IMG/VR virus record: IMGVR_UViG_3300009527_000143
Coordinates: 1 to 34,147 of that record
From: a virus
Direction: 5' to 3' (one strand)
Length of the DNA: 34,147 nt
The notes beneath the pieces are model-generated. The model did not search any database, had not been told where the DNA came from, and worked only from the letters and a program-made list of their open reading frames with translations. This document shows positions 484 through 34,147 of this stretch, one piece after another (position 1 is the stretch's first letter; each line of letters begins with the position of its first letter). The translations under genes and the position numbers were made by a program.

Positions 484-981
484 TCAAGTAGACGAATCAT
501 GCCTATTAACTATTCGTTGATACATACTTCTACAATGACGATATTTAACTCGGTCTTTTAGAATATTTGCACTTTTCTCGAAACTTCCTAGACTTACAAC
601 TTCTACAGAATCGAAATATTTGACTCCCCACTGATTCATTTCTTTTCTAGTCTCTGTATATATGTCTACAATTGGACGACCGTCTCTGGATTTATCTACT
701 AATGCAGAACCATAATCTTTAACAGTATACTTAGAATCACCTATTTTAAGAACAGTATCTACTGGAAAGATACTCCAATCTGTAGCAATAACTCCTTTTT
801 TCAAAGTTGAACCAGTGGCAGTCTTTTTACCATACTTCAAATGATCTTTTTCATTTGAAGTATATGCTGTTGTCGCAATATCAATTTTTTTAGATTTTTG
901 AAACACTGTCATTTTAGGTCTTGTTCCTTGACAAGAACAGCCTAACATTAACAAAACAAAAATCAGAAAATATCGGTTCAT
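484..981 (-). CDS. 3D-domain (double-psi beta-barrel) lipoprotein
   Basis: The sequence begins with a short basic N-terminus, a hydrophobic stretch and Cys15 in the context LMLGC, resembling a lipoprotein signal peptide. The rest matches the 3D domain, named for three aspartates, which also forms the C-terminal part of MltA-type lytic transglycosylases. Visible landmarks are TAYTS, a TATG segment, then Asp68 (IATDW), Asp89 (VKDYG) and Asp106 (VDIYT), followed by WGVKYFDSVEV. I prefer ATG 981 over ATG 999 because the latter overlaps the stop of the upstream gene; neither has a clear Shine-Dalgarno site. A membrane-anchored 3D protein in a phage suggests a role at the peptidoglycan, in lysis or entry. 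That role is inferred from the family. Confidence 0.75.
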   Translation of the reverse strand: MNRYFLIFVLLMLGCSCQGTRPKMTVFQKSKKIDIATTAYTSNEKDHLKYGKKTATGSTLKKGVIATDWSIFPVDTVLKIGDSKYTVKDYGSALVDKSRDGRPIVDIYTETRKEMNQWGVKYFDSVEVVSLGSFEKSANILKDRVKYRHCRSMYQRIVNRHDSST

Positions 982-988
982 AAATTTA

Positions 989-1492
989 TTATTGCTCATT
1001 TTTCAGTAATTTATAATTCAAAAAATCACTCTTAACTATATCATCATCAACACCATTGAGGTCATAATACTCCAATTTAAGATGTTTTTTAATTACATCT
1101 TTCATACTATCATATTCTTCTTCCATAATCATTTTATATTCCCCATCTGTTGTTCTATAGATAGAATTATCCATAACCCATTCTTTAGACTGAAAATCTA
1201 AATTTGAATGACAAATCTCAACATCTTCTAATTTATGTATTCCATATTTCCTAACATCTTTACTGGCAGTGTTGTTATAAAAATAATCACTGTATAACTG
1301 TGCAAAATTTACATCTGGTAATTCAATAACTGCGCGTTTTCCTGAGAATCGAGTATATCCTCCATAATCTCTCATAAAAGGCTGTCCGCCATCTGCCATA
1401 ATATATTGGTTTCCTTCGCCGTATGATCGGAAATCATAACGTGCTACAGAAAAAACGCAATGAGTATCATTTATACTAGCTATTAATTTCAT
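989..1492 (-). CDS. Unknown protein, 167 residues
   Basis: A soluble, tyrosine- and aspartate-rich protein with no signal peptide or membrane segment. The N-terminal half has alternating hydrophobic and polar residues (MKLIASINDTHCVFSVARYDF) that look like beta strands. The C-terminal third is charged and probably helical. It sits between the 76-residue gene (its stop is one base upstream of this ATG) and the 3D lipoprotein, so it is co-transcribed with the UV endonuclease. I do not recognise a family. Confidence 0.75.
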   Translation of the reverse strand: MKLIASINDTHCVFSVARYDFRSYGEGNQYIMADGGQPFMRDYGGYTRFSGKRAVIELPDVNFAQLYSDYFYNNTASKDVRKYGIHKLEDVEICHSNLDFQSKEWVMDNSIYRTTDGEYKMIMEEEYDSMKDVIKKHLKLEYYDLNGVDDDIVKSDFLNYKLLKNEQ

Positions 1493-2732: not shown

Positions 2733-2785
2733 AAAAATAAAATATTGTAGCTGATAACGCGCATCAGCTACAATATTTTATTTTT
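2733..2785 (-). terminator. Strong hairpin terminator between cassette and UV cluster
   Basis: A perfect 23-base inverted repeat (arms 2733-2755 and 2763-2785, 7-base loop). A-rich sequence precedes the left arm, so leftward transcripts end in a long U run. It lies 14 bases beyond the stop of the DUF1501 gene and would end the leftward cassette transcript. A shorter T run on the other side could also serve rightward transcription. Confidence 0.8.
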
Positions 2786-2798
2786 ACGACAGTATATA

Positions 2799-4094
2799 TC
2801 AACTAATCAATTCTAAAATAGGTTTTACACCATTTCCTACCGTAAATGGACGATTAGGAGCAGAACTATCTGGCGGACTTGTCCAAACCAAATCATGCTT
2901 TATTCCTAAAAGATGCGCTATTGTTGAATTTAGCTCATTAACTGTTACAGGTCTTTCTGTCACCTTTTCCGCAAATTCATCAGTTTTCCCAATAACTCTT
3001 CCTCCAATTCCGCATCCACCAACCATAGCAGAAAATGCTGATACATAGTGATCTCTACCATTGTTAGCATTATAAGGAGATAGTTCAGCTCCATCTCGGT
3101 ATATCGGTGTCCTCCCGAATTCGGTTTCTACCACAATCAGAGTTTCGTTTATTTTTCCACTAGCCACCAAATCAGAAAAAAGAGCGTCCAATCCTCTATC
3201 TAGAATAGTGGACCTAGTCAAAAAGTTATCAGCCAATTCTACGTGATGGTCCCATCCGCCAAGCCCTACTTCCACTACTGATACGCCATTTTCAACCAAT
3301 CTCCTAGCAAGTAGAAGCCCCTGTCCAAAAGTCTCCATTCCATACCTCTCTCTCGTTTCTTTACTCTCTTTATTAAGGTCAAAAACTTCCAAATCTTTAC
3401 TCTGCAAAGTCTTCAGAGTTTCATCATATAGGGTGGAATATGCCGCAGTAGCAGGATTTCCAAATTTCTTATTGAACACTCCGTTTAAAGATTTCAATAA
3501 TTCTATTCTATCAAATAAATCATCCTTAGTAGTCAACATTTTACTAAACCGCAGTCCTTCATTAGGATTAACCACCGGAAGAGGAGTGAATGACGTATTC
3601 AAATAACCATGCGCCGGATGTTCTGAAGGAGTAGTAATTAATACAGTATCCGGTAAAGTAGGATGATTTTTACCTTTTATAAATGAGCGTATTGGGCCTA
3701 TTGATGGGTGATTTATTAGAGCAGATTTTTGATAAGAAGTCTTCAATTGATATGTAGCAGATTCATGTGCTCCACTTTTTCCAGTCATAGAACGTATCAA
3801 TGAAAAGTGTTCTGCATGTTTTGATAAATTTCTAAAATAATCTGATACATATAATCCGGGAACTTTAGTTGATATTATTTTAGTGTCACCAGAAACTTTA
3901 TAATTTTCTTTCGGATCAAAACTATCAATATGACTCATTCCTCCCCCAAGAGTTATAATAATAGCATTTTTGGCTTTTCCAAAATTACTATTATGTCCCT
4001 GTGCATAAGAACAATTTGATCCTAAAACGGATACACCCAATGTGGAAAATGCTAATTTCTCCACAAACACTCTTCTTGAAATATCGTCATTCAT
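2799..4094 (-). CDS. DUF1501 family protein with twin-arginine signal
   Basis: A 431-residue member of DUF1501, a family related to the alkaline phosphatase/sulfatase superfamily and very abundant in planctomycetes and verrucomicrobia. Residues 5-10 read SRRVFV, followed by a hydrophobic stretch and SYAQG, a plausible Tat export signal as usual for this family. Landmarks are GGGMSHIDSFDPK (about 50-62), GWDHH (280-284), TEFGRTP (324-330), GRDHY (346-350) and GKTDEF (369-374). I chose ATG 4094 because the upstream TTG extension would add residues ahead of the Tat motif. It is the last gene of the cassette. Biochemical function of the family is unsettled; an extracytoplasmic role is expected. 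Confidence 0.9.
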   Translation of the reverse strand: MNDDISRRVFVEKLAFSTLGVSVLGSNCSYAQGHNSNFGKAKNAIIITLGGGMSHIDSFDPKENYKVSGDTKIISTKVPGLYVSDYFRNLSKHAEHFSLIRSMTGKSGAHESATYQLKTSYQKSALINHPSIGPIRSFIKGKNHPTLPDTVLITTPSEHPAHGYLNTSFTPLPVVNPNEGLRFSKMLTTKDDLFDRIELLKSLNGVFNKKFGNPATAAYSTLYDETLKTLQSKDLEVFDLNKESKETRERYGMETFGQGLLLARRLVENGVSVVEVGLGGWDHHVELADNFLTRSTILDRGLDALFSDLVASGKINETLIVVETEFGRTPIYRDGAELSPYNANNGRDHYVSAFSAMVGGCGIGGRVIGKTDEFAEKVTERPVTVNELNSTIAHLLGIKHDLVWTSPPDSSAPNRPFTVGNGVKPILELIS

Positions 4095-4123
4095 ATTGTT
4101 ATTTAATTTTATATCGTAGCTAA

Positions 4124-4468
4124 TCAATAATTCGTGTCAATCTCTGCAAGGGAAGTAGCTTTCCGCTCAACTAAGTTACTTTTATAATGCGCAGGACAAA
4201 GACCTCCCCATCCTTTTGCAGAGATATTGTCAGAGTGTTTGCATTTGTATGCATTCAATGGCTCCCATACAGGAGTGCATCCATCCGTGCGTGGAATAGG
4301 TTCTTGCCTTGATCCGCATCGTTCACATATTGCATAGCTAGATTTGTCATCATAGTGTTCAGTTTTCCACTCATGTCCGCGCAATAAACATAGGAGCTTC
4401 TGATAAGCACGTTCACAACTAATCGCTCCAAAAAATCCTAGAGAAACCTTAGCTATAATTTGATTCAT
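4124..4468 (-). CDS. Small zinc-ribbon-like protein inside the PVC cassette
   Basis: A 114-residue protein from ATG 4468 (a TTG at 4498 would overlap the upstream stop). After a moderately hydrophobic N-terminus there is a LLRGHEW segment followed by ICERCGS, a spacing reminiscent of the phage DUF1660 zinc-finger proteins. More Cys/His follow (DGC, YKCKH, GLCPAHY), so it probably binds one or two zinc ions. It lies between the DUF1549/DUF1553 and DUF1501 genes, 26 bases after the former and about 30 before the latter. In bacteria those two genes are often directly adjacent, so this middle gene is unusual. Function unknown. Confidence 0.7.
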   Translation of the reverse strand: MNQIIAKVSLGFFGAISCERAYQKLLCLLRGHEWKTEHYDDKSSYAICERCGSRQEPIPRTDGCTPVWEPLNAYKCKHSDNISAKGWGGLCPAHYKSNLVERKATSLAEIDTNY

Positions 4469-4494
4469 ATTTTTATGTAGTTTTTTAGAATATA

Positions 4495-6231
4495 TCAATG
4501 CTTAAACAGAAATTCATTACTGTTTAGAAGTATCCACACCAATTCATCAGGATGTTTATTTGACATATTACTCTTCTCAAAAAGAGTAGCAGGTCTTCCC
4601 ATCATAGTCAAGAATATTTCTTCTCTATTTTTATGTTGCATGACACTACTTTTTTTATCTGTTATCAGTTTTATGAGCGGAGAATTCATGATAACCAATA
4701 GTTGCGTCACTGTGCCGTTTTGATTGCTACTGTCCAACAACATGCGGTCACTTGCACCAAATTCCTTCAAAAATAGTCCCAAAAACCCATTATTGCCTTT
4801 ATAATTGAAGCACGCTCTAACCAAGTCAATACCATTATATTTCAAAAATTTATCTGACAATTCTTTTTCCCACAAATTTATTTTATCTATTTTTGTAGTA
4901 AGAAAAGAAACATCAACTCTATCTGTCAAAAAATCAATATTAACTACATCATTGTAACTAGATAGGTCAACTTTAGAGTAATTAGGGTCATCTAATATCA
5001 TAGTCATAATACTGTCCCATAATTGGTATGAAGTCATTCTGCGTACAGCAACTCCACTGAATACAAAATCGTCCATACTACCATTATATGCCGGACGAGA
5101 ATAATAATCAGAATCGCAAATATGATGTATAAGTCTTTTTATAGAATATTTGTTATTTCTAAAATAACTACCTAGATATTCTATAAAAAGTCTATTCTTG
5201 GCATTTGCAGTATCCACATCAGTAGGGTTTTGTGGATAATATAAATTAATTCCGGTCAAATTTTGAAAAATTCTATTTGCAATTACATTTTGAAAATCCT
5301 CATGCTGGACCACCCATTCTGCAAATAATTTCCTACGATTATCCGGTTCTCCCGCACTTTTAGAGTCCAAAGTTTTTGGGACAACTACGCTATTTGGAGA
5401 AGCATTATTATATTGATAATCAAATGGATACTTCAGTAATCGAGTCTTGTCAGTAAAAACATTAATGGTATTTGCCGACAATAATTGTCTGGCAGAATTT
5501 TGATATCTTTGACGCAGTCTCAATCTTTCTAAATCGGTTAATTTAGATGAATTGGATGATAATTCAGTAGAAGTTCCGAACTCATCATTGACTCTTTTCA
5601 TAATTTCCCGATATTCTGGAACAATTTTTCTATTAGTATTGTTCATATATGCGGCCAGTTCGTAAAATTGCTGTTGTGTATATTCCGAAAACGGATCATC
5701 GTGGCATTGGCAACAACTGATATCCTTTCCTATAAAAATTTTAGTAGAAAGTGCTAAGTTATCTAACGACATACCATCGTCTCTCAACAAATAACCAGTT
5801 GCCCCATTGACCATCGGAGAACCTTCCGAGTTCAATAATGACTTAACAAATTCATCGTAACTAACATCATTTTTCAAAAAATCTCTTATATATTGCACAT
5901 AAGAATATGCCCGTAATTGTATATTATCAGAAAGTTTTTCCGGCCTTATTCTAAGAATATCAGCAAATACATTATAAAAATTATTAACATAGTCTTCAGA
6001 ATTTAGCAAAGATACTATTAGCTTAGATTTTTTATTAGCATCATTGCTCTCAGTGTAATTTAATATTTCCTCTTTATTTGGAATTCTTCCGGCCACATCT
6101 ATATATAATCTACGTATAAACGTATATTCATCCACCTTTGCGGCAATATTTGGAGGTAGATTTTTATCTAATTCATTTGCATATAAAAATGATATTGTAG
6201 ATAATAGTATTGATAAAAATATTTGTTTCAT
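4495..6231 (-). CDS. Exported DUF1549/DUF1553 protein (PSCyt2-PSD1 type)
   Basis: A 578-residue protein. Residues 1-18 look like a signal peptide ending near LYAN. The DUF1549 part includes DEYTFIRRLYIDVAGRIPN (34-52) and CCQCHDDPF, in which Cys173-Cys176-His177 form a CxxCH motif, the form normally conserved in this family. The DUF1553 part starts near NRRKLFAEWV (about 298) and runs to the C-terminus. Bacterial homologues are usually longer with extra N-terminal cytochrome or concanavalin-like domains, so this is a compact version. Neighbouring DUF1501 is its usual genomic partner. The family is typical of PVC bacteria; its reaction is not established. It was probably captured from a host and acts outside the cytoplasm. 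Confidence 0.88.
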   Translation of the reverse strand: MKQIFLSILLSTISFLYANELDKNLPPNIAAKVDEYTFIRRLYIDVAGRIPNKEEILNYTESNDANKKSKLIVSLLNSEDYVNNFYNVFADILRIRPEKLSDNIQLRAYSYVQYIRDFLKNDVSYDEFVKSLLNSEGSPMVNGATGYLLRDDGMSLDNLALSTKIFIGKDISCCQCHDDPFSEYTQQQFYELAAYMNNTNRKIVPEYREIMKRVNDEFGTSTELSSNSSKLTDLERLRLRQRYQNSARQLLSANTINVFTDKTRLLKYPFDYQYNNASPNSVVVPKTLDSKSAGEPDNRRKLFAEWVVQHEDFQNVIANRIFQNLTGINLYYPQNPTDVDTANAKNRLFIEYLGSYFRNNKYSIKRLIHHICDSDYYSRPAYNGSMDDFVFSGVAVRRMTSYQLWDSIMTMILDDPNYSKVDLSSYNDVVNIDFLTDRVDVSFLTTKIDKINLWEKELSDKFLKYNGIDLVRACFNYKGNNGFLGLFLKEFGASDRMLLDSSNQNGTVTQLLVIMNSPLIKLITDKKSSVMQHKNREEIFLTMMGRPATLFEKSNMSNKHPDELVWILLNSNEFLFKH

Positions 6232-6258
6232 AGTTTAAAATTTATTCCAAGTATTTAC

Positions 6259-6287
6259 ACTATAGCACATACTGCCATAAAAATCAA
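6259..6287 (-). promoter_or_regulatory. Promoter of the PVC-type cassette
   Basis: On the minus strand TTGATT (6287-6282), a 17-base spacer and TATAGT (6264-6259) precede the DUF1549/DUF1553 start by 27 bases. This gives the cassette its own promoter with a normal leader of about 20 bases, unlike the leaderless layout at several phage genes. The -35 hexamer overlaps the outer end of the 6283-6331 hairpin. Confidence 0.6.
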
Positions 6288-6331
6288 CATAAAAACCTAA
6301 ACTATAATATAGTTTAGGTTTTTATGTTGAT
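6283..6331 (-). terminator. Long perfect hairpin upstream of the cassette
   Basis: A perfect 23-base inverted repeat (arms 6283-6305 and 6309-6331) with a 3-base loop. It contains T/A-rich segments on both sides, so it could end transcripts coming leftward from the TnpB region before the cassette promoter. It mirrors the 2733-2785 hairpin at the other end of the cassette. Confidence 0.7.
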
Positions 6332-6424: not shown

Positions 6425-6685
6425 TCATTCTTTACCTCCTTCGTCCACGATTTCCTGTCGGATTTTGTCCGTGATGTTAGCGTCAAGAAGGGCACGCCAT
6501 TGGTTGATCGTAATGCCGTGGCTCGCATCATTGATGCCGTGGTAGCTTAGATATATTGATCCGTCATTGCGTTGATCAAATCTCAGGATGCACTCTCCCG
6601 GCCAGTTGTCTGGAATACCACGAGCAACCTCCAAAAACGGCGCTAACAATCCCGTTCTTTTAAACTTACAAAAATCTAAAGTCAT
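6425..6685 (-). CDS. Small unknown protein in a G+C-rich patch
   Basis: An 86-residue protein without signal or membrane segment, containing GIPDNWPGECILRFDQ and GITINQWRALLDANIT, which look like a compact alpha/beta domain. Its ATG overlaps the TGA of the TnpB remnant (ATGA). Sample 60-base lines inside it are about 45-55% G+C, far above most of the window, and the change begins within the first twenty codons. The N-terminus may therefore be a junction product with the TnpB element. No family recognised. Confidence 0.6.
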   Translation of the reverse strand: MTLDFCKFKRTGLLAPFLEVARGIPDNWPGECILRFDQRNDGSIYLSYHGINDASHGITINQWRALLDANITDKIRQEIVDEGGKE

Positions 6686-7520
6686 CTTTTTAAGATATAA
6701 ACTCTTGATTTTTTGTTAAATTCCTGCTTCACGGACGGGCTTAAAGAAATCGCTTTCTCTGAACTCCCATCTCCACAGGCTTGAATTTCGAGGGAACTCC
6801 CCGTATAAATTTGTTTTAGATTCAAACTCGCATTTAAATCTCTATCTATTTTCATATCACATATCTTACATTCAAACACTCTATCTGTCAACTTCAAATC
6901 TGAATTTTTCCATCCGCAACGGCTACAAGTCTTGCTAGAAGGAAAGAAAGTATCCGCGAAAATAACTTTCCTATCATTCCATTTAACTTTGTATTCAATC
7001 TGCCGACGAAATTCAAACAATCCAACGTCACTGATAACTTGTGCCAAACAATGATTTTTCATCATATTACTCACCTTCAAGTCTTCTAAAACTATAACAT
7101 TGGCTTTCTGTATAATTTCCGAAGTTACTTTATGTAAACAATCTTTACGAATGTTTGATATACGATAATGTAATTTTGCTAATTTTTGTTTTGCTTTTCC
7201 ATAGTTTTTACTTCCTTTTTTCTTTTTGCTTAATTGTTTTTGTTTGCGTTTTAATCTCTTGAGATTATTCTTTAATGCTTTAGGATTTTCATAGGTCGTT
7301 CTATCTGAACAAGTAGCTAAAGTTTTGATTCCCAAATCAATTCCAACAACATCATTCTTAGCGTCAGAATGCTCTTTATCGGGGCTTCTACTTGAACTGA
7401 TACAAACCACTTGCCAGCACGTTTAGAGACTGTAGCGGACAGTATTTTACAATCAGTAGGAATATAATCTAAAAGTGAAAATATTTTAACTTTCTTTAGA
7501 TATTTTAGATTATCGGGCAA
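6682..7520 (-). pseudogene. tnpB: TnpB remnant, N-terminally truncated and frameshifted
   Basis: TnpB is the RNA-guided RuvC nuclease of IS200/IS605-type elements. Two frames together cover roughly its C-terminal two thirds. Upstream frame 7520-7385 reads ILSATVSKRAGKWFVSVQVE; downstream frame continues with VVGIDLGIKTLA (RuvC-I Asp), VIVLEDLKVSNM (RuvC-II Glu), the four-Cys zinc finger CSRCGW and CKIC, and IDRDLNASLNL (RuvC-III Asp). The tail ACGDGSS ... VKQE is typical of the family. The frames join at a run of four C (minus strand, 7384-7381): one extra C restores a continuous protein. The N-terminal helix-turn-helix and recognition region is absent; a TGA near 7529 closes the frame. No TnpA gene is visible. 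Confidence 0.88.
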
Positions 7521-7855
7521 CTGTTGTCAACCCCGCAGCAAGTTGCCTCGGTATCTTTCCTTGATTTTTGAGGTTTATTCATGGCAGTCGCTGGGTCTGT
7601 GAACTGCACAAAACGGGCTCGCGGTATGTATCCGTATCGCTCATGACAGTATGGCATGGGCATGATGTATCGGACATATAGCATGTTGTCATCCCACGGC
7701 AGATCAACACTCTCGGCGAGAACCACACAGACGCAGATTTCGCCGTCCCATGTAGAAAACTTACCATATTTTCCGACCAAATCTGAACAACTCGGAGCAA
7801 GGGTGTTGCAACCATCAGAAGGCAGCACATCTGTCATATCAATAGTATTTTTCAT
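7505..7855 (-). CDS. Unknown cysteine-rich protein in a G+C-rich patch
   Basis: A 116-residue protein with about seven cysteines and aromatic-rich beta-like segments (GKYGKFSTWDGEICVCVVLA, MLYVRYIMPMPYCHERYGY). Base composition is near 47% G+C in a sampled line, matching the 6425-6685 gene and unlike the rest. Its last codons and TAA overlap the first codons of the TnpB remnant, so the original C-terminus may have been replaced at the insertion junction. An alternative frame at 7579-7830 is a shadow. No family recognised. Confidence 0.6.
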   Translation of the reverse strand: MKNTIDMTDVLPSDGCNTLAPSCSDLVGKYGKFSTWDGEICVCVVLAESVDLPWDDNMLYVRYIMPMPYCHERYGYIPRARFVQFTDPATAMNKPQKSRKDTEATCCGVDNSCPII

Positions 7856-7905: not shown

Positions 7906-9177
7906 CTATTTTGCAACAGAAATTGGGTCAATTAGAAGGTCTTTAGCAGCCTTCAATCCAATCATATTCATTATGTCAATTCCAGCATTTCCTGAAGAAT
8001 TTGATTCGTTATCATTTCCAAACATAATATTGGGGGTCAATGATACTTTTGCATTACCTATCGCATCTGCCCAGAATTTCTGAGTCTCAACGTATGCAGA
8101 AAGTTTTTTCTCCAAAGCACCATCAGCTTCCATCACCAACTTTCGGGATTCCGCATCAGCACGTCCCTTTTCTATCACTGCCTGAGCATCTAGCTTTGCG
8201 GTTTCTAGAGAAAGGGTGGCAACTTCTTGCTTCTGTTTTGCCTCAGTAACCGCTACTTGTTTTAGTTTCTCGGATTCAATAGTTGCTTTTGCAAGTTCTA
8301 CATTGGCAGAAGCTTCGGCAGTGGCTTTATCTGCCAATCCTTTTTGTTCAGCGGTGATTTTATCCTGCTCTGCCTTTTTTGCTTCTGCAATAGCAGTCTG
8401 AACTTTGATAGTCGCATCTAACTGTGCCTGAATCTGAGCATCCACCTTGTCATCATAGTCAATGCTGTTTATATTGAGAGACTGAACTACTAGACCGAAT
8501 TTCTGAAATGGGCTTTTTGTAGAAATGTCGGGCTTACCATCCTGAGTAGTTCTAATTTTAATCTTAGTAATAGTTCGCTCAAATCCTAATCCGTCCTTTT
8601 CTTTAGTTAGAGAGCCATCCGTAGAAAATACTCCATCAACTAATTGTTTTTGAATATATTCAAAAAGTAGTCCTCTGGAAGACGAATACGATTCAGTTGA
8701 CGACATAAGAGAACCTGTATTGAATATACACATCTGTAAAAATGAACGAATCAATCTCTGGTCAACTGCCTCTGGCGTAAGATATTGACTATGCAACTGC
8801 TTTATTTGCTCAATATCTGCGGAAAGTTCGTAATTAATCACTCCACTGATCCTAGCGGTTCCAGAATCATTGAACCGAATTTCAATAGACTCATCACTAT
8901 TAGAACCTTGATCGTCGTACTTACTAAAGCTGAATGTTCCAGCCCTATTATAATGAACCGGAGTTCCAAATCCCTGCCAATGCCATCCGGGACTATCATA
9001 AACTTCCACCATTCCAGAGGGCTTGGTAATCACCAGAACCTGACTGGCATTATTACTTTCGACCAAATTAGGCCCAATCACAAGTCCAGCAATTGCACAA
9101 ATTGCTCCAATAATCGTATTTCTTACTTTTGTCATGTTATTTACTTTTGTCATGTTATTATTAATATTACTTCTCAT
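7906..9177 (-). CDS. SPFH/Band-7 (prohibitin/flotillin-like) membrane protein
   Basis: A 423-residue protein from ATG 9177. A single N-terminal membrane helix (NTIIGAICAIAGLVIGPNL) is followed by a Band-7 domain starting VLVITKPSGMVEVYDSPGWHW and running to about residue 240. Then comes a long Ala/Lys/Glu-rich coiled coil (roughly 245-370) and a polar tail. SPFH proteins form large oligomeric rings or cages on membranes. Relatives occur in many large T4-like phages, where their role is unproven. The start region carries a tandem duplication of the ATG context, so three in-frame ATGs (9177, 9153, 9135) are available. The promoter-like pair at 9192-9220 supports a start near 9177. Confidence 0.85.
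   Translation of the reverse strand: MRSNINNNMTKVNNMTKVRNTIIGAICAIAGLVIGPNLVESNNASQVLVITKPSGMVEVYDSPGWHWQGFGTPVHYNRAGTFSFSKYDDQGSNSDESIEIRFNDSGTARISGVINYELSADIEQIKQLHSQYLTPEAVDQRLIRSFLQMCIFNTGSLMSSTESYSSSRGLLFEYIQKQLVDGVFSTDGSLTKEKDGLGFERTITKIKIRTTQDGKPDISTKSPFQKFGLVVQSLNINSIDYDDKVDAQIQAQLDATIKVQTAIAEAKKAEQDKITAEQKGLADKATAEASANVELAKATIESEKLKQVAVTEAKQKQEVATLSLETAKLDAQAVIEKGRADAESRKLVMEADGALEKKLSAYVETQKFWADAIGNAKVSLTPNIMFGNDNESNSSGNAGIDIMNMIGLKAAKDLLIDPISVAK
9126..9161. repeat. 18-base tandem duplication at the SPFH gene start
   Basis: The unit tacttttgtcatgttatt occurs twice in a row (9126-9143, 9144-9161). On the coding strand each copy carries AATAACATGACAAAAGTA, so the duplication repeats six codons and supplies an additional ATG. 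Confidence 0.97.
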
Positions 9178-9191
9178 ATATGCTGCACCGA

Positions 9192-9220
9192 ACTCTATCA
9201 CTATCTAACCACTAAGTCAA
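9192..9220 (-). promoter_or_regulatory. Possible promoter of the SPFH gene
   Basis: On the minus strand TTGACT (9220-9215), a 17-base spacer and TAGAGT (9197-9192) precede ATG 9177 by 14 bases. The -35 match is good and the -10 match is moderate. Confidence 0.4.
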
Positions 9221-12088: not shown

Positions 12089-12994
12089 TCAATTTTTAAT
12101 AAGTTTAGTAAGCAATCCACCCGAAAAATTCAATTCTCGATCTAATACAAAAGAATGTCTATACATATATTCAGCTATATTAGAGCACGCCTCTATATCC
12201 TCATCAAGGATTGCAAAATCAAATAAATTTCTCATAAGAACATGATAATCAGAACCAAATTCTTTCTCGTTCTGATATACAAAAGTTCTTAGCGCTAAGA
12301 AACTATCTGTTTTAGTCATTTCCCATATTTTTTTAGCAAAATTTATTGAAGATTCAGTTTCAATAGGAGCTACAAGAAATCCTGTCTTGCAGTATTTCTG
12401 TAATTCATTGAGAACTTTCCGTAAATCAGGAAAATGCTTTGAAATTAGGCTTCTTATAAAGGTCAAATTTTCTTTAAGACCTTGAATTTTTTCTTCTTTC
12501 AGAACAAAAGAAACTCTCTTTTTATATGCATCTAAGTCTGGCTGAAATCTAAAAGTTTGGCATCTTGATGCAATAGCATCAATAATACGATGTTCATAAT
12601 TAGCAGTTAAAATAAATCTCGCAGTATCTAAATGCTGTTCCATCACTTCTCGTAAAGCACACTGTGCAGCATTTGTAAAATTATCAAACTCTGACAAAAT
12701 AACCAATTTCCTTTCACCATTACCGAGTAATGATTGGCTTGAGAGGAAATTTTCAATTTCATACCTCACTGTATCAATACCATTATTTGATGATGCATTG
12801 ATGTATAGAGTGGTGTATGGAGCAAACTTATCTCGCAAGTAGTAAGCAAGAGTATTTTTCCCTGTCCCCGGTCCTCCTAAAAATAGATAATTATTTTCAA
12901 TACCATTAATATTAGAAAAGTATGAGCGATTTTCTATGCTCATAACCATATCATCCAATGATTTAGGTCTATATTTTTCAGTCCAGATTTCCAT
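12089..12994 (-). CDS. Clamp-loader ATPase subunit, T4 gp44/RFC-small-like
   Basis: A 301-residue AAA+ protein close to T4 gp44 in size. It opens with WTEKYRPKSLDDMV, the RFC-box start of clamp loaders. The nucleotide loop is GGPGTGKNT (40-48) and Walker B is KLVILSEFDN (96-105), followed by sensor-1 LTANYE and the SRC arginine-finger motif IASRCQTF (141-148). Family function is loading the sliding clamp on DNA. Two key positions are unusual: Asn47 replaces the Walker-A Thr/Ser after Lys46, and Ser101 replaces the first acidic residue of the Walker-B DExD. Both normally coordinate magnesium, so ATP hydrolysis may be altered. Confidence 0.88.
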   Translation of the reverse strand: MEIWTEKYRPKSLDDMVMSIENRSYFSNINGIENNYLFLGGPGTGKNTLAYYLRDKFAPYTTLYINASSNNGIDTVRYEIENFLSSQSLLGNGERKLVILSEFDNFTNAAQCALREVMEQHLDTARFILTANYEHRIIDAIASRCQTFRFQPDLDAYKKRVSFVLKEEKIQGLKENLTFIRSLISKHFPDLRKVLNELQKYCKTGFLVAPIETESSINFAKKIWEMTKTDSFLALRTFVYQNEKEFGSDYHVLMRNLFDFAILDEDIEACSNIAEYMYRHSFVLDRELNFSGGLLTKLIKN

Positions 12995-16414: not shown

Positions 16415-16686
16415 TGAAAACTGCTAAAGAAATGGATAATATAGAGCTTACAAAGTGGTTTGCTCTTATGAATGCTCTAAAATATGTAAATCTAGGCGAA
16501 GATATATATGATCAAAAAATTGACGCCATTAATGCACATGAGGGTATTTGCAAATATGTAGAATCTGTATCTGGAGATATGCTAACATATCTAAGAGAAT
16601 GGGGCGGAGTTCCGTACAAATACAGTTTAGACTCTTCTGATGAAGAGTCTAAACAAATTGATGAACTTGATTTAGCTTATTATTAG
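16414..16686 (+). CDS. Small unknown protein containing a hairpin in its 3' end
   Basis: A 90-residue acidic, helical protein. A GGAGG sequence about 11 bases before the ATG is one of the few Shine-Dalgarno-like sites seen here, although it lies in the preceding coding region. Its 3' end carries a 13-base perfect hairpin (16625-16654) and overlaps the stop of the convergent tail tube gene by four bases. No family recognised. Confidence 0.7.
   Translation: MKTAKEMDNIELTKWFALMNALKYVNLGEDIYDQKIDAINAHEGICKYVESVSGDMLTYLREWGGVPYKYSLDSSDEESKQIDELDLAYY
16625..16654. terminator. Hairpin inside a coding region at a convergent junction
   Basis: Arms 16625-16637 and 16642-16654 are perfectly complementary with loop TGAT. 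It lies about 30 bases before the convergent stops at 16683-16686. The flanks are A/T rich but lack a long T run, so termination is plausible rather than certain. Confidence 0.45.
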
Positions 16687-17339
16687 ACGGTAATATTTTT
16701 ACCTACACAAGACTGTAAACCTGACGCTATCTGTGCATCAAATGATGAATAGATAGCGTCTAATCTATTATCTTGAATGCTAACTAGTGATTCATTAATT
16801 GAAATGGGTTCCCATCTCTGAATATGAAATACAAAGTCAAAATCTACCATTGCAGTATCTTCTTGATTATATTGAACTGCACCGACACTTACAGGGAACA
16901 TGCCAATCAAACGGTAGCCTCTACTAACGTCACAGTTTTGACCGACAAGCATGTAATCTACATAAGTGCTTTGACACGGAACTTTACCAATTCCACAAGA
17001 ACTATCTGGATTAGCTAAATCAAATATCCATCTCTCCAAAGCATTTCTAAGAAGAAAATCAGATGGCATTCTTATTGACCAAGTTTGCTCATTTTCAAAT
17101 TCAATCTGTCCGGGCATAGTCAACGGAAAAGCCTGATACTTATAGTCTATCTTGGCCACTCCTACTTTAGGGACACTAGCTGTTTTAATGTAGACTCTGC
17201 CTTCCAAATCAATGAGTTCTTTTTTAACGTAATCTGGCACTCCAGCAATATCAAGGACGTGCAGATGGTGGGATAACGAAAATCCGTGCTGTTGAAAAAC
17301 TTGCACAGCATTTCTTACTGAATAATTATTAAGTGCCAT
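16683..17339 (-). CDS. Tail tube protein, T4 gp19-like
   Basis: A 218-residue structural protein. The features match T4 gp19: an early KTASVPKVGVAKIDYKYQ segment with PGQIEFENEQTWSIRMPSD, then LERWIFDL, a long loop, YMLVGQ, and the conserved end YRLIGMFPVSVGAVQYNQ followed by FDFVFHIQRWEPI. It would polymerise into the tube of a contractile tail, which identifies the phage as a myovirus. The last 35 residues extend beyond the usual end. It stands alone on the minus strand between rightward clusters, with a T4-late-like GATAAATA six bases before its ATG. Confidence 0.85.
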   Translation of the reverse strand: MALNNYSVRNAVQVFQQHGFSLSHHLHVLDIAGVPDYVKKELIDLEGRVYIKTASVPKVGVAKIDYKYQAFPLTMPGQIEFENEQTWSIRMPSDFLLRNALERWIFDLANPDSSCGIGKVPCQSTYVDYMLVGQNCDVSRGYRLIGMFPVSVGAVQYNQEDTAMVDFDFVFHIQRWEPISINESLVSIQDNRLDAIYSSFDAQIASGLQSCVGKNITV

Positions 17340-20799: not shown

Positions 20800-23700
20800 A
20801 TGATTCTAGATCGTGTAGAAAAACTTGCATCCTTTCCTTATGAACACATAGGAGTTTTTGTAAATCCTAATGTTGAGCCACAAGCCAATATTAGAATGGG
20901 TATTAAGGTTCGTTCTAATGATTGGGAATATAATCGTCCCAACCTAAAATGGACAGCAGATTCATGGAAAAGAGCAGGTGAAGTATCTGAATTATTAAAT
21001 TCACCAACACTATCATCTTACTACGATACGGACCTCACTGGTGAATACTTTCAAACAGGAACACATATTGATCTACCGGATACATTTCCTCTTTTTTATG
21101 AAACATTTGAAATACCCAATCATCACCTAATACTTCAATTTAGAGCAGGGGCATCTGCATTAAGTGTATTCCCCGAAGCTCCCTATCCTAAAATATCCTC
21201 GCTAGGTAATAATATTATTACAGTGTCTGGATGCAAACTCCCTCTAACAGGATTAGAGGGAGATTTATCTATTTCTGAATTTAGAAGAGATTATGTAAAT
21301 CCCGATGATTTAGAAGAATTAGATTTATGTAATATCTACGCACATACACATAATTACACTGGACCATCTGGCACAGTATATCAGATGTGGGATGATTTTT
21401 ACCTATCTCCTAGTAGAGAAAGCTATGTGATTCAAACACAGGCCAATAACTCTCCTACGAGAGTTATAAACAATAAAATCTTAACTAATCAGAAAATAAT
21501 ACCTGAGACTTTTTCATTAACCTTTCCAGTGTCATGTGCTAGTGCAGAATTACCATTCATATATACTGCATCATATTGGAAAACACAAAATGTAGCCTCT
21601 GTTCAATATCACTTTTTAACTGGTGGTGATGTAGAAGAATTTGGCCAAATATTAAACCAAGCTACGCTCAGTAATCCGGGAAAGATACATGCAATAGATT
21701 TAAAGAACGGTTTTTTCGTTCCTAAAGGAGGAGAGATAATTGCTTCTTACCAAGTATCCTCATTACCTTATATAGAATCTACCAATCCTGCTCTTTTTGT
21801 GCATGGGGTAAGTGCAGCTTCTTCAAACAACTTCTTTACTATTTCTTCTCAAGAATCACCCTATTTTTATAATTACAAATTTTATACAAATTATGATGAT
21901 AATTCTATTCAAGATACTGATGCCTTTACTATTCATTATCATCCAGAAATAAACATCGAACAAAATGAGTCTTCATCAGTAAATGCCAGTATAACTATGA
22001 TAGATAACTTCTATCAGACTGAACTCAGTATTGATGACCCATCAAGTAAAATAAAATGGAAATATTCTGAAGAAATACATGATCCTAGCTTATCAGCAAT
22101 GGATTTAGGCACTGGTCAGATATATACCGAAAATCAATGGATGCCTGCTAGTGCTGAAGTTAAGTTTTTCGGAGACGGAAGAGCAAACCGTTACTTGTTA
22201 ACCCCTACAGTGTCAAGTTTTCAAGACGATATTTGGTATCCTGATGATTTCTCATTTATTCTCAATAAAGAAAATGCTGATATAAATTTACAAGCATCAT
22301 CTACTGGACCTAATTTTACTATTGTAAATGCTAATATTTTTCCTAATTTTGATTCTACTAAATTAGTAAAATGGAATGTCGAGCCTGCCGACAATATTAG
22401 ACTATATCATAACTTCGGAGAACTGCAACTAGAAAATGATGGAATATCTATCATTCCAGAAATTGCAAACGAATTTCAAATAAATGAAACAGTAAGTGCT
22501 AACAGTCTATCTATTATTGTTGATAATCTAGGCGTATTACCTACTAAAATAAGTCTGTCTTCTGAAGAATATGAAACTTCCGCCTTTACTATCTGGTATC
22601 CGGTAAAAGAATCTTTTGACAATTTACGTTTGCAGCTTAGTGCTGAAACAGATGATTATCATAGAGTTCAAGAAATAGCGTTATCTGCATTTTACGTTAA
22701 GAATGAAATGCTCTATCCTGCCCCGGAATCAGGTAGCATATTATGGAAAGAAACTAATAATGACCCTAGAGGAGAGTCAGAATTATACACCAAAGATTAT
22801 GAAACAAGAATCTTTGAAAATGCTTCATATCCTCTCATAAAAAAAACCTCTGTCATAAATTCCAAAATAGACATGGATGAAGCAACTTCTTCTCCTAGAA
22901 ATATCGTCTATTTATACAAAGCACTCTGCAATGGTCAAAAACCTAATAGTGATGAGACCTACTCTATAGAAGACGGCATTAGCATCTCTCTGAGGCAATA
23001 TCCAGCAAACGTAGGAATAACCGCATCACTGACTTCATCAAATGGAGACGTATTCACCACAGATTCTATAAGCAACTATATTGTAAATGATTCTTCTGTT
23101 ACTGTCAGTGCTGAAGCAATTACCGCAGATTTTAGAAGTATTACTGAACTAGTATGGAATATAGAAGGAATCACTAGCACTGGGCCGACCGCAGAATTTA
23201 CGCTAGCAGGTTCATCAATTTGTTTCGATATTTCTGCGCTCAGTGCTGCTCCAGTGAACACTAATTTTGGTGAATATCATTTCAGTGATAGTTATTGCTT
23301 ATATAAAATAGGAACAAATTATCCTGAAATGGACTATATTGCCTTTCCTAAAAATATGTATTTTCCCCTTCGCGCATTGGGCATAGACGATGATAGTAGC
23401 TACCTATTCTCAGAAGGACTGACGGGATTAAACGGATGCATTAATACTGTCGAAATTTCAGCAACTGAAGGATTTGACAAATATGAATATTTTGTAGGTG
23501 ACGTATCTGCATTATCTAACAGCCATACAATAATCCTCACTGCTAACAATGATGGTCCAGTCGTAGTCAACGGATACAACAACATTTTCCCCAAAGAAAA
23601 TTCACTATCAGTATATAATAGCATATCATCCGATAACACTACATATCTCAAAGAAGATTACTTGAACATCGAGATAACCGCATTTCCTACAACCCTGACA

Positions 23701-26025
23701 TTGACTGATACTTTATTCAATGTCAGAGACAACGATTCTGCATCATTCTTTATTGATACATCATTCTCTGGGATAGAGACTCTCAACGAATATAAAATAG
23801 CAGTAAGTGGTGATGGATATATAAATTATTCAGATATAGTAAGCTCTGATGTTATAGATGGACGTGTGCAATTCTATACTGATGCGGATCGTTTTCCCAG
23901 CATCAAAAGAAACACATATAATTTATTGAATATAGCATTAGTAGGAAATATTCATAAAAAAGTAGATGGAAGTTCTTGCTCATATTCTCAAGTTTTTTCA
24001 ACAAATTGGATTCCTGTAACAGCTTTTGATGGACCAGACCTAGAATTGTTCTATCCTCGCAATATTTTTACAACAGGTGAAACTGTTAGCGCAATCAATG
24101 TTACTCAAGAATTTCCTAATAGCTACACCAACTTCATTTTTGATGATGGCAATGGTAATATTACTTCAGGCTATTCTTATCAAGACACTATTACTGCATC
24201 ATATAACACTGATGGAATATATTCTCAATCTCTAACAGGTATAGGACCAGAGAGTTCTGCATCCTATACTTGGGAAGACGTAATAGTAATAAAATCTAGC
24301 TTTGAGGAATATGATGCTACAGTAGACCGCATTTTCCCAGAAGATGTTAAATTACCTAATTCGTGCAAAGACATAGAAATACTACCTAATAGTTGGCAAT
24401 GGAAAGAGAATGTCAATTCTTCTATATCTTCTGTTATGAAAAATATTTCAAGTTTAACAAGTGATTGTTTCTCTTGGTCAATCAACAATCCCAAACATAA
24501 TATAGGTTACATACTAGAAGACCGTGGAAATTTACGCTGGAAATATACTAATAATTTTGCCACAGAAAATACATTACTGTCCAATTACATAGGATTTATA
24601 GAAATAGATAACAACCTACTATTTTTCACTAAAGATAAAATAAAAGTAGTAAAAAATGACTATAAATTAACCACAATAAAAACCTTCACCAAAATAACAG
24701 ATGGTGAAAAATTCAATAATATTAAATCAATGTGCTATATTCCAGAAACTAATAAATTACTAGTAGTTGATGGGAACAATATCTACGTATTTGATTATTC
24801 GACTACTAATATTTCGCTCACACATTATTGGGGAGGAGAGGGAACTGTCACCAGTAAATCTGAAATCAATAATCCGACAGACAGCATATCTCTTAATGGC
24901 AATATTTATATAACTGATTCTGATAGTAATAATATTAAGATATACAACAAATATCTGAACTGGATTGATAGTTTATCTTATGTCGGCTGGTCAGAAAATA
25001 ATAAACCTGTCTCTACTGCTATTATGGATGGTAAATATTATGTCATCACTACCAATGGAGATATTGATATTTTTGAAACTTCTACTAAAGCTCATATTAA
25101 GAGTATTAAATCAGTGATAGGAATTAAAATAAGAAAAAATCCTGATAGCGAAGATTTCTTACAAATAATTTCTGACGGTTTTATATATAATTTAGACAGC
25201 AATGGTAAAATATATTCAAAGTGGCAATGTGGTAGTGCTAAAGAACTAATTTTTCAAAATAAAGAGATTTTTATTCTTACAGACAAAACATTAGAAAAAT
25301 ATATAAACTACATTGAATCAGGAAGTGTATTAACCTCAGAGCCGACTTTTGCGGACTTAAATAGCTTCAATATAGTCCAAGACGAATTTAACAGTTCATT
25401 TGTTTGGAACGATGTATTTGTCAAACTACATCAAAATTGCTTAGCACTGCATGAACAGATATCTAAAAAATTCACAACATATCTTGATGAAAATGAAAAC
25501 TTCCATCATTATTCTGTAGAGCCTATAACATTAGATGAAATTCATATATTAGAACCAATGCAGTTGCTAGGTAATAATGAAATTGTTTCATGGGAAACTA
25601 TTAACCGCAATTTTTCTATAATTTGCGGTAACTTAGAAAAATTACGTAAAATGGTGGACGTCAGAATATCTAGAACAGATTCATCATTTTGTTGGACATG
25701 GAAAAATCTAAGGATAGATAATAGTCAAAATCTTTCTTCTAATAAAAGACCGTATTCATTCGTAGAAATAGACTCCGAGGCACTAACTCATAGCTCAGAA
25801 CTATCTTCACTTTCTTGGAAAGATGCTAGAAACACTGGATGCGGATATGAGAGTAATCATATGCCAATTTGCTGGACTTGGGAAAATATGTCATGTAATT
25901 GTATTTGGCCAGTGTCATGGGATCAAATGGAATGTGATGAATACCTACATAAGACATGGGAAGAATTAGAAGAAAGTTGTTGTGCTGTTCCTGTTAAAAG
26001 ATTTGACAACTGCATAGAAAAATAA
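20800..26025 (+). CDS. Giant virion protein, probable tail fibre or baseplate protein
   Basis: A 1741-residue protein without signal peptide or membrane helix. The first ~1200 residues are Ser/Thr/Asn-rich beta sequence with Ig/PKD-like stretches (for example NSYTNFIFDDGNGNITSGYS). Residues about 1265-1515 look like a beta propeller of NHL/WD type, with repeats such as NNIYVFDYSTTN and NIYITDSDSNNIKIYN. The C-terminus carries repeated Ser-x-x-Trp-x-x-hydrophobic motifs: VSWETI, CWTWKNL, LSWKDA, CWTWENM, VSWDQM, KTWEEL, and ends Cys-rich. It is the last gene of the rightward cluster, followed by a hairpin terminator. Likely late-expressed and involved in host recognition; the exact position in the particle is unknown. 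Confidence 0.7.
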   Translation: MILDRVEKLASFPYEHIGVFVNPNVEPQANIRMGIKVRSNDWEYNRPNLKWTADSWKRAGEVSELLNSPTLSSYYDTDLTGEYFQTGTHIDLPDTFPLFYETFEIPNHHLILQFRAGASALSVFPEAPYPKISSLGNNIITVSGCKLPLTGLEGDLSISEFRRDYVNPDDLEELDLCNIYAHTHNYTGPSGTVYQMWDDFYLSPSRESYVIQTQANNSPTRVINNKILTNQKIIPETFSLTFPVSCASAELPFIYTASYWKTQNVASVQYHFLTGGDVEEFGQILNQATLSNPGKIHAIDLKNGFFVPKGGEIIASYQVSSLPYIESTNPALFVHGVSAASSNNFFTISSQESPYFYNYKFYTNYDDNSIQDTDAFTIHYHPEINIEQNESSSVNASITMIDNFYQTELSIDDPSSKIKWKYSEEIHDPSLSAMDLGTGQIYTENQWMPASAEVKFFGDGRANRYLLTPTVSSFQDDIWYPDDFSFILNKENADINLQASSTGPNFTIVNANIFPNFDSTKLVKWNVEPADNIRLYHNFGELQLENDGISIIPEIANEFQINETVSANSLSIIVDNLGVLPTKISLSSEEYETSAFTIWYPVKESFDNLRLQLSAETDDYHRVQEIALSAFYVKNEMLYPAPESGSILWKETNNDPRGESELYTKDYETRIFENASYPLIKKTSVINSKIDMDEATSSPRNIVYLYKALCNGQKPNSDETYSIEDGISISLRQYPANVGITASLTSSNGDVFTTDSISNYIVNDSSVTVSAEAITADFRSITELVWNIEGITSTGPTAEFTLAGSSICFDISALSAAPVNTNFGEYHFSDSYCLYKIGTNYPEMDYIAFPKNMYFPLRALGIDDDSSYLFSEGLTGLNGCINTVEISATEGFDKYEYFVGDVSALSNSHTIILTANNDGPVVVNGYNNIFPKENSLSVYNSISSDNTTYLKEDYLNIEITAFPTTLTLTDTLFNVRDNDSASFFIDTSFSGIETLNEYKIAVSGDGYINYSDIVSSDVIDGRVQFYTDADRFPSIKRNTYNLLNIALVGNIHKKVDGSSCSYSQVFSTNWIPVTAFDGPDLELFYPRNIFTTGETVSAINVTQEFPNSYTNFIFDDGNGNITSGYSYQDTITASYNTDGIYSQSLTGIGPESSASYTWEDVIVIKSSFEEYDATVDRIFPEDVKLPNSCKDIEILPNSWQWKENVNSSISSVMKNISSLTSDCFSWSINNPKHNIGYILEDRGNLRWKYTNNFATENTLLSNYIGFIEIDNNLLFFTKDKIKVVKNDYKLTTIKTFTKITDGEKFNNIKSMCYIPETNKLLVVDGNNIYVFDYSTTNISLTHYWGGEGTVTSKSEINNPTDSISLNGNIYITDSDSNNIKIYNKYLNWIDSLSYVGWSENNKPVSTAIMDGKYYVITTNGDIDIFETSTKAHIKSIKSVIGIKIRKNPDSEDFLQIISDGFIYNLDSNGKIYSKWQCGSAKELIFQNKEIFILTDKTLEKYINYIESGSVLTSEPTFADLNSFNIVQDEFNSSFVWNDVFVKLHQNCLALHEQISKKFTTYLDENENFHHYSVEPITLDEIHILEPMQLLGNNEIVSWETINRNFSIICGNLEKLRKMVDVRISRTDSSFCWTWKNLRIDNSQNLSSNKRPYSFVEIDSEALTHSSELSSLSWKDARNTGCGYESNHMPICWTWENMSCNCIWPVSWDQMECDEYLHKTWEELEESCCAVPVKRFDNCIEK

Positions 26026-33536: not shown

Positions 33537-34147
33537 ATGTATATCACAGGTAATAAAGATTTTGAACAGTTTTTAGGAAAATATGTTATAGTCGAGATAG
33601 ACGGTAAGAAGAAAAAGTTCTTCGTAGAACAATTTAACCCATCAGAAGAATATGACGATCCTACCTACATTTTCAGTAACCAATACAATGTATTCGGTTT
33701 AGCTACCACACAAAGCTGCGAAAATTGTCAAAATGTATTTGGTATAACAAACTTCAGTCCTATTTTTAAAAATGTAGAACTAGGTGAGCCCTTTAGTATC
33801 CAAGTCAATACTATTGGAAATGAAGATCTTGTTTATTTTTGGTATAAAGACAATGTATTACTGGCAAATTCATCAAGTTCATTAGAGATATTGGACTCAG
33901 AATTGAGCGATTCTGGAACCTATTGGGTAGTGGTATCTGGGGAGTGTAATGTGATTACTAGTCCTAGTGCAGATGTGATAGTAGCATCACCTACAACTAC
34001 TACATCAACTACTGAAACCGGACTTCCTACCTTTCCCCCACCAACTACAACAGAGGAACCTACTACAACTACAACAGAGGAACCTACAACTACAACTACA
34101 ACAGAGGAACCTACAACTACAACTACAACAGAGGAACCTACAACTAC
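33537..34147 (+). CDS. Partial protein with Ig-like domain and Thr/Glu/Pro repeats
   Basis: ATG 33537 starts five bases after the previous stop, and the frame runs off the right edge (about 203 residues visible). Residues 1-75 hold an unknown N-terminal part with CENC. Residues about 80-145 fit an immunoglobulin-like fold: VELGEPFSIQV, VYFWYKDNVLL, LEILDSELSDSGTYWVVVSG. Then follows a Ser/Thr/Pro linker and tandem EEP-Thr repeats. Ig-like domains decorate many phage virion proteins and bind carbohydrates weakly. The low-complexity stretch resembles a mucin-like stalk. Confidence 0.7.
   Translation, partial: MYITGNKDFEQFLGKYVIVEIDGKKKKFFVEQFNPSEEYDDPTYIFSNQYNVFGLATTQSCENCQNVFGITNFSPIFKNVELGEPFSIQVNTIGNEDLVYFWYKDNVLLANSSSSLEILDSELSDSGTYWVVVSGECNVITSPSADVIVASPTTTTSTTETGLPTFPPPTTTEEPTTTTTEEPTTTTTTEEPTTTTTTEEPTT
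34029..34147 (+). repeat. Tandem Glu-Glu-Pro-Thr(5-6) coding repeat
   Basis: GAGGAACCT followed by ACA/ACT codons recurs with starts at 34053, 34077, 34104 and 34131, that is one 24-base and then two 27-base periods, and continues to the window edge. The array encodes EEPTTTTT/TTTTTT units. Confidence 0.95.

Follow-up and report, generated by a model that had tools for sequence, protein, structure and literature searches.

A DUF1549/DUF1553-DUF1501 gene pair of probable verrucomicrobial origin in a lineage of T4-like phages

The IMG/VR virus record IMGVR_UViG_3300009527_000143, a stretch of 34,147 bases analysed here at full length (the window), carries among its phage genes a DUF1549/DUF1553 (PSCyt2-PSD1) gene followed by a DUF1501 gene. 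This pair is a previously uncatalogued phage-borne version of a module of the Planctomycetes-Verrucomicrobia-Chlamydiae (PVC) bacteria. Gene order, phylogeny, and substitution rates indicate that a single event very probably brought the whole operon into the phages from a Verrucomicrobiota bacterium, and that purifying selection has since maintained it as an accessory part of a phage lineage. A preliminary description of the window had recognized the DUF1549/DUF1553 protein with its CxxCH motif, a small cysteine-rich gene, and a DUF1501 protein with a twin-arginine translocation (Tat) signal, and all of these score over their Pfam cut-offs. PF07583 and PF07587 occur together in one protein (109.6 and 57.2 bits against cut-offs of 29.8 and 28.5), and PF07394 reaches 278.8 bits against a cut-off of 27, covering profile positions 1-368 of 390. 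It was equally right that these PVC hallmark families are neighbours in the phage and that both carry export signals.

Recurrence of the pair in related phages

Scans of IMG/VR started from the window protein and went on to alignments of phage copies; a scan with a single DUF1501 sequence returned no match, so alignments were needed. At least eight further distinct phage contigs with the locus were recovered, in addition to near-duplicate contigs. In every contig that spans the locus, the DUF1549/1553 gene precedes the DUF1501 gene on the same strand, downstream of the clamp loader gene. The locus lies near a block, shared with the window, that comprises the tail tube gene, an exonuclease gene, and four to five lineage-specific small genes. 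The same three-gene order had been proposed as something to look for in other phages; it recurs for the pair but not for the DUF1660 gene between the two large genes, which was not found in other phage contigs with the pair and belongs to a phage-type family inserted in the window alone. The recurring unit is the DUF1549/1553-DUF1501 pair, not three genes. Neither large protein has a match in PHROG, and neither was found by tblastn among 50,697 records of cultured phages.

The related contig L101 shows the same region without the pair. Its clamp loader (46% identical to that of the window) is followed directly by the next shared gene (fam12) and the block is present, while a profile search of the whole L101 record found neither domain; contig L100 is also without both. 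Since L101 lacks the pair at this locus, we regard the pair as an accessory cassette at a fixed site. A chimeric contig or a recent insertion is rejected by the eight other syntenic contigs, the single phage clade described below, and unremarkable guanine-plus-cytosine (GC) content (the two large genes have 0.37 and 0.32, the window 0.33). Beside a chimeric join, a second case had been named that would refute the preliminary description, a phylogeny that puts the genes within a single bacterial genome and leaves them no relatives in phages; the same eight contigs exclude it.

Origin, selection, and host

At 37-43% identity to the window protein, the nearest relatives in bacteria come almost all from Verrucomicrobiota or Planctomycetota, and in almost all of them the two genes adjoin in the same order. 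The phage copies form one clade, both in the separate DUF1501 and DUF1549/1553 trees (Shimodaira-Hasegawa-like approximate likelihood ratio test support of 100 each) and in a concatenated tree (100/100). In the latter, the phage clade falls within a clade of 26 rows (99/99) that is drawn from Verrucomicrobiota except for one planctomycete, and it stands beside Verrucomicrobiaceae/Prosthecobacter sequences (86/80), the exact sister not being firm. Long branches and compositional bias were flagged for the AT-rich phage rows. Because two genes and their concatenation agree, a tree artefact is less likely, although one may still affect the exact sister group. The nesting of a single phage clade among Verrucomicrobiota points to a single capture of the operon followed by vertical descent. 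Between near phage copies, the ratio of nonsynonymous to synonymous substitution rates of the pair is 0.06-0.14, compared with 0.13-0.14 for two other genes of these phages, those for the protease and the exonuclease.

The phage pair resembles the DUF1549/DUF1553-DUF1501 pairs of PVC bacteria in families, order, strand, export signals, conserved residues, and CxxCH. It differs from those of Verrucomicrobiota and Planctomycetota in its phage locus, in a DUF1549 protein of about 575 amino acids (aa) where the bacterial ones have about 610-1020 aa, and in reading CAQCHDD for CAQCHDH. DUF1501 is present in one to two copies per phage, as opposed to about 100 per PVC genome; the three PVC genomes examined, which are candidate host-like, have at least 95 DUF1501 matches each. 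Pairs of DUF1800 and DUF1501 in Proteobacteria likewise join a Tat-exported DUF1501 to a second gene in a predicted operon, but the partner is of another Pfam family, and the pairs are bacterial and have moved with chitin synthase genes in some species (PMC5122149). Like other phage-borne auxiliary metabolic and accessory genes, the pair is accessory, selected, apparently host-derived, and accompanied by metabolic cargo, but it is a two-protein exported module and is absent from PHROGs and from sequenced cultured phages.

A second, different DUF1501 gene is located just upstream of the clamp loader gene in three contigs (L006:2839-4092, L007:4266-5516, and L008:7681-8937), with no DUF1549 partner. 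Its product is 61-66% identical to proteins of 5 of 195 sampled Verrucomicrobiota genomes, 55% identical in a sixth, and at best 59% identical to proteins of 199 Planctomycetota genomes. The 61-66% identity to Verrucomicrobiota suggests a separate, probably later, acquisition, and that the hosts of these phages are most likely Verrucomicrobiota. Some of the Verrucomicrobiota genes that match this second DUF1501 precede a PPC-domain gene.

Expression and genomic setting

The features of the cassette are listed in Table 1. Perfect hairpins had been described at both of its ends and are present there; they are the longest two perfect inverted repeats in the window. Terminator-like hairpins also occur at the 3' end of the pair in most relatives. 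The idea that the cassette is a self-contained moron does not hold in general: the pair is accessory, being missing from L101, but in seven relatives examined there is neither a comparable upstream hairpin nor a convincing sigma-70-like promoter. A promoter of its own had been proposed for the window copy as well. The sequence TTGATT-17-TATAGT does exist, yet sites as good or better number 41 in 6.1 kb against 27.6 (standard deviation 4.2) in shuffles, so the match is no better than chance and by itself weak evidence.

Table 1 Features of the gene pair and its surroundings in the window.
Feature	Position	Strand	Assignment
Perfect hairpin, 23-nt arms, then T-run	2733..2785	.	Intrinsic terminator 3' of DUF1501 on the minus strand
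DUF1501 protein, 431 aa, twin-arginine N-terminus (DISRRVFVEKL)	2799..4094	-	Pfam PF07394, 1e-82 (residues 41-403)
TAAATA, 11 nt 5' of the DUF1501 ATG	4100..4105	-	Lineage-wide start-site element, late-promoter-like
DUF1660 small Cys-rich (zinc-ribbon-like) protein, 114 aa	4124..4468	-	PF07874, 1.6e-6, over cut-off; phrog_2670, 2.6e-6
DUF1549/DUF1553 (PSCyt2-PSD1) protein, 578 aa	4495..6231	-	Pfam PF07583, 2.6e-31; PF07587, 2.2e-15
TAAATACT, 26 nt 5' of the DUF1549 ATG	6250..6257	-	Relatives: TAAGTAT 16-18 nt before their DUF1549 (those checked)
TTGATT-17-TATAGT, 9/12, weak	6259..6287	-	Sigma-70-like match, promoter scan
Perfect hairpin, 24-nt arms	6283..6331	.	Upstream of DUF1549; reads as minus-strand intrinsic terminator ending the cluster of genes before it
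TnpB (IS200/IS605, RNA-guided endonuclease) remnant	6682..7520	-	Adjoins the cassette
SPFH/Band_7 protein	7906..9201	-	Among the extra genes; in a stretch with GC 0.40-0.43
Clamp loader, gp44-like	12089..12994	-	Pfam match; syntenic anchor upstream of the pair throughout the lineage
Lipoprotein-like 3D-domain protein	484..999	-	fam61; Pfam match under cut-off

The gene starts of the lineage carry an element of a different kind. Over 299 starts, the near/far counts are 61/7 for TAAATA and 19/1 for TAAGTA, with 35 TAAATA at exactly 11 nucleotides (nt); per position, TAAATA is enriched 22-fold and TAAGTA 27-fold at 9-20 nt relative to 27-60 nt before the ATG. This element may be a T4-late-type promoter with very short leaders (near-leaderless mRNAs), or possibly a translation signal. 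Its occurrence at the genes of the pair, as TAAATA or TAAGTAT, supports a link between expression of the pair and the phage's own start-site element, rather than an independent bacterial promoter. Elsewhere the element is also mostly found exactly 11 nt before the ATG, for example at the window gene 16683-17339 and in L008, L009, and L136.

Pfam and PHROG profiles identify further phage genes in the window, encoding a T4-type 5'-3' exonuclease, a gp19-like tail tube protein, NAMPT, and phosphoribosyl pyrophosphate (PRPP) synthetase. The window clamp loader and tail tube match T4-like phages, cyanophages included, by tblastn. No convincing match to the gp23 major capsid profile was obtained in any contig of the lineage, and the T4-like label therefore rests on the clamp loader, tail tube, and 5'-3' exonuclease. 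The phages of the lineage are rich in other metabolic genes (NAMPT, PRPP synthetase, and adenylosuccinate synthetase). PADLOC returned no match, and a reading of the cassette as defence genes was dropped.

Gene order in the window is conserved apart from about 6 kb of extra genes (SPFH, a methyltransferase, and a broken TnpB) between the clamp loader and the pair. The TnpB remnant is a pseudogene: only its C-terminal half is matched, the part before it lies in a different frame, and its N-terminus is overrun by 7505-7855. The SPFH gene lies where GC content is raised and is not common to other contigs. The 3D-domain protein is common to related phages. Large proteins of 1,741 aa (window 20800-26025) and 1,706 aa (L136:3468-8588) occupy corresponding places, have no Pfam matches, and are probably structural. 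At 33537-34145 an Ig-like domain protein continues as a TTTEEPTTT repeat past the contig end and is likely a surface or adhesion protein. In two contigs a reading frame of about 300 aa splits the clamp loader gene (L003:1288-3587 and L007:7680-9956), with flanking pieces that resemble an intein or homing endonuclease.

Predicted proteins and their possible role

The DUF1501 gene most likely starts at the ATG at 4094 rather than at the TTG at 4127. The twin-arginine RR is kept in every row, phage and bacterial, and the phage copies retain the conserved H55, D57, D60, K62, H110, D282, H284, E325, D348, and H349, except that one has D for E325. The AlphaFold model (predicted local distance difference test score, pLDDT, 87.6) aligns with alkaline-phosphatase-superfamily chains (PafA/NPP and many others) at Z 18-20 over 238-289 residues, and by this model DUF1501 is predicted to have the alkaline-phosphatase-superfamily fold. 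Weak sequence similarity to LtaS and sulfatases was also detected. DUF1501 differs from that superfamily (PafA, NPP, sulfatases, and LtaS) in that neither the usual first Asp nor the Ser/Thr nucleophile is invariant and the CxPxR formylglycine motif is absent, the latter from all 66 DUF1501 rows examined. SxPxR strings occur in only 8 of the 66 rows, and that of the window (SAPNR) is near the C-terminus. Membership of the type I (formylglycine) sulfatases is rejected because no C/S-x-P-x-R motif is at the active-site position, and the earlier suggestion that the cargo helps virions through sulfated polysaccharide thus lacks a key feature.

The DUF1549/1553 protein has a Sec-type signal peptide, and by inspection the N-termini in the phage alignment are signal-peptide-like. 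It contains one CxxCH (C173-x-x-C176-H177, residues 173-177), which is kept in 9/9 phage rows and, by residue comparison, in all DUF1549/1553 rows, phage and bacterial. The window reads CCQCHDDPF at this site, where nearly all bacterial relatives have CAQCHDHPF. Two residues past CxxCH, the phage copies have Asp (D179, 9/9) and the bacterial relatives His (40/40). The exact pattern CAQCHDDPF was found once among 195 Verrucomicrobiota genomes, in a true DUF1549, and CAQCHDHPF 16 times in six PVC genomes; given this one bacterial exception, exclusivity of CAQCHDD to phages was rejected. The structure model (pLDDT 88.3) gave no meaningful whole-protein match in the PDB (Foldseek E >0.1; best Z 5) and no cytochrome-like match, which has no bearing on heme status. 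The sequence holds a weak hint of phycobilisome-linker domains. The Sec and Tat signals support the prediction that both proteins exit the cytoplasm.

These features are consistent with a scheme in which the phage, late in infection, would produce a version of its own of an exported module of the host. DUF1501 would be a metallohydrolase of the alkaline-phosphatase fold, with DUF1549/1553 as its CxxCH scaffold or redox partner, and the two would act either periplasmically or at the outer surface of the cell. Their targets in the infected cell might be glycans of the surface or phosphate/sulfate esters of the envelope, and altering these could favour the release of progeny or restrict superinfection, and might also free nutrients. 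An exported enzyme-plus-partner module that remodels the host surface or periplasm during infection is our tentative preference, at somewhat less than even odds. It is favoured because of the fold, the conserved residues, the export signals, the expansion of these families in the host phyla, and the published saccharide-degrading and compartment context. The stronger version, that a T4-like phage clade of Verrucomicrobiota domesticated a PVC exported module as a conserved infection-stage weapon against the envelope of the host, one that bears a phage-specific change beside the heme-type motif, is possible but a little less probable.

Several points weigh against this scheme. We know of no substrate, enzymatic activity, or heme attachment for either family in any organism, and of no tail depolymerase or exclusion precedent involving them. 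Of the canonical two-metal site of the alkaline phosphatase superfamily with its Ser/Thr/Cys nucleophile, DUF1501 shows conserved H/D/E residues, but the nucleophile is not kept throughout the family, the candidate positions 104 and 107 being variable. The phage DUF1549 has Asp where CAQCHDH has its near-invariant second His, and its activity may differ from that of the host protein. The host assignment is drawn from gene origin, not from CRISPR (clustered regularly interspaced short palindromic repeats) spacers or infection.

The change at the CAQCHDH histidine and the shorter phage protein could instead indicate a decoy or poison subunit that would join complexes of host paralogues, disabling or redirecting these. 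This is improbable, as the phage retains CxxCH and its own DUF1501 partner with conserved residues, and the Asp is shared by a bacterial DUF1549. A virion-associated enzyme acting at adsorption would suit an envelope or glycan hydrolase of the alkaline-phosphatase fold, but Sec and Tat signals are unexpected on virion proteins and the pair lies in a replication neighbourhood, not a tail-fibre cluster, which makes this reading very improbable.

In freshwater Verrucomicrobia, PSCyt genes have been reported near sulfatases, some with carbohydrate-binding modules, and the same source states that nothing is known about the function of DUF1501, PSCyt, and PSD genes (PMC5615132). Such a context, the many DUF1501 genes of candidate host-like genomes, and the other metabolic genes of these phages would also fit an auxiliary metabolic module. 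The pair might then release phosphate, sulfate, or sugar from an extracellular polymer, or transfer electrons in the periplasm via the CxxCH protein, fuelling replication with no role in cell-surface competition. We consider this unlikely, though the strongest of the alternatives: a host with about 100 paralogues hardly needs another for bulk catabolism, and the phage copy, at about 47% identity and with its length reduced, does not closely reproduce a host gene. Kamneva et al. 2012, as cited in PMC4452313 and PMC4960237, further link a DUF1501 genomic module to those PVC species that have intracellular membranes. Together with the SPFH/Band_7 gene upstream in the window, this link could place the pair in the internal-membrane or compartment organization of PVC cells. 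The published link is a presence/absence correlation, and the SPFH gene is peculiar to the window among these contigs, so that such a role seems slightly less probable even than a decoy.

Few genes of planctomycetes and verrucomicrobia are as numerous, or as poorly understood, as the DUF1501 and PSCyt/PSD genes. The capture of one pair by a phage lineage, and its retention by purifying selection, suggest that the module is important during infection and provide a compact version to study. To our knowledge, few phages are known for Verrucomicrobiota, and the pair may serve as a host marker tying an uncultured T4-like lineage to this phylum. If the pair is indeed a domesticated weapon, it would represent a minimal form of a module abundant in PVC genomes and offer a route to its function.

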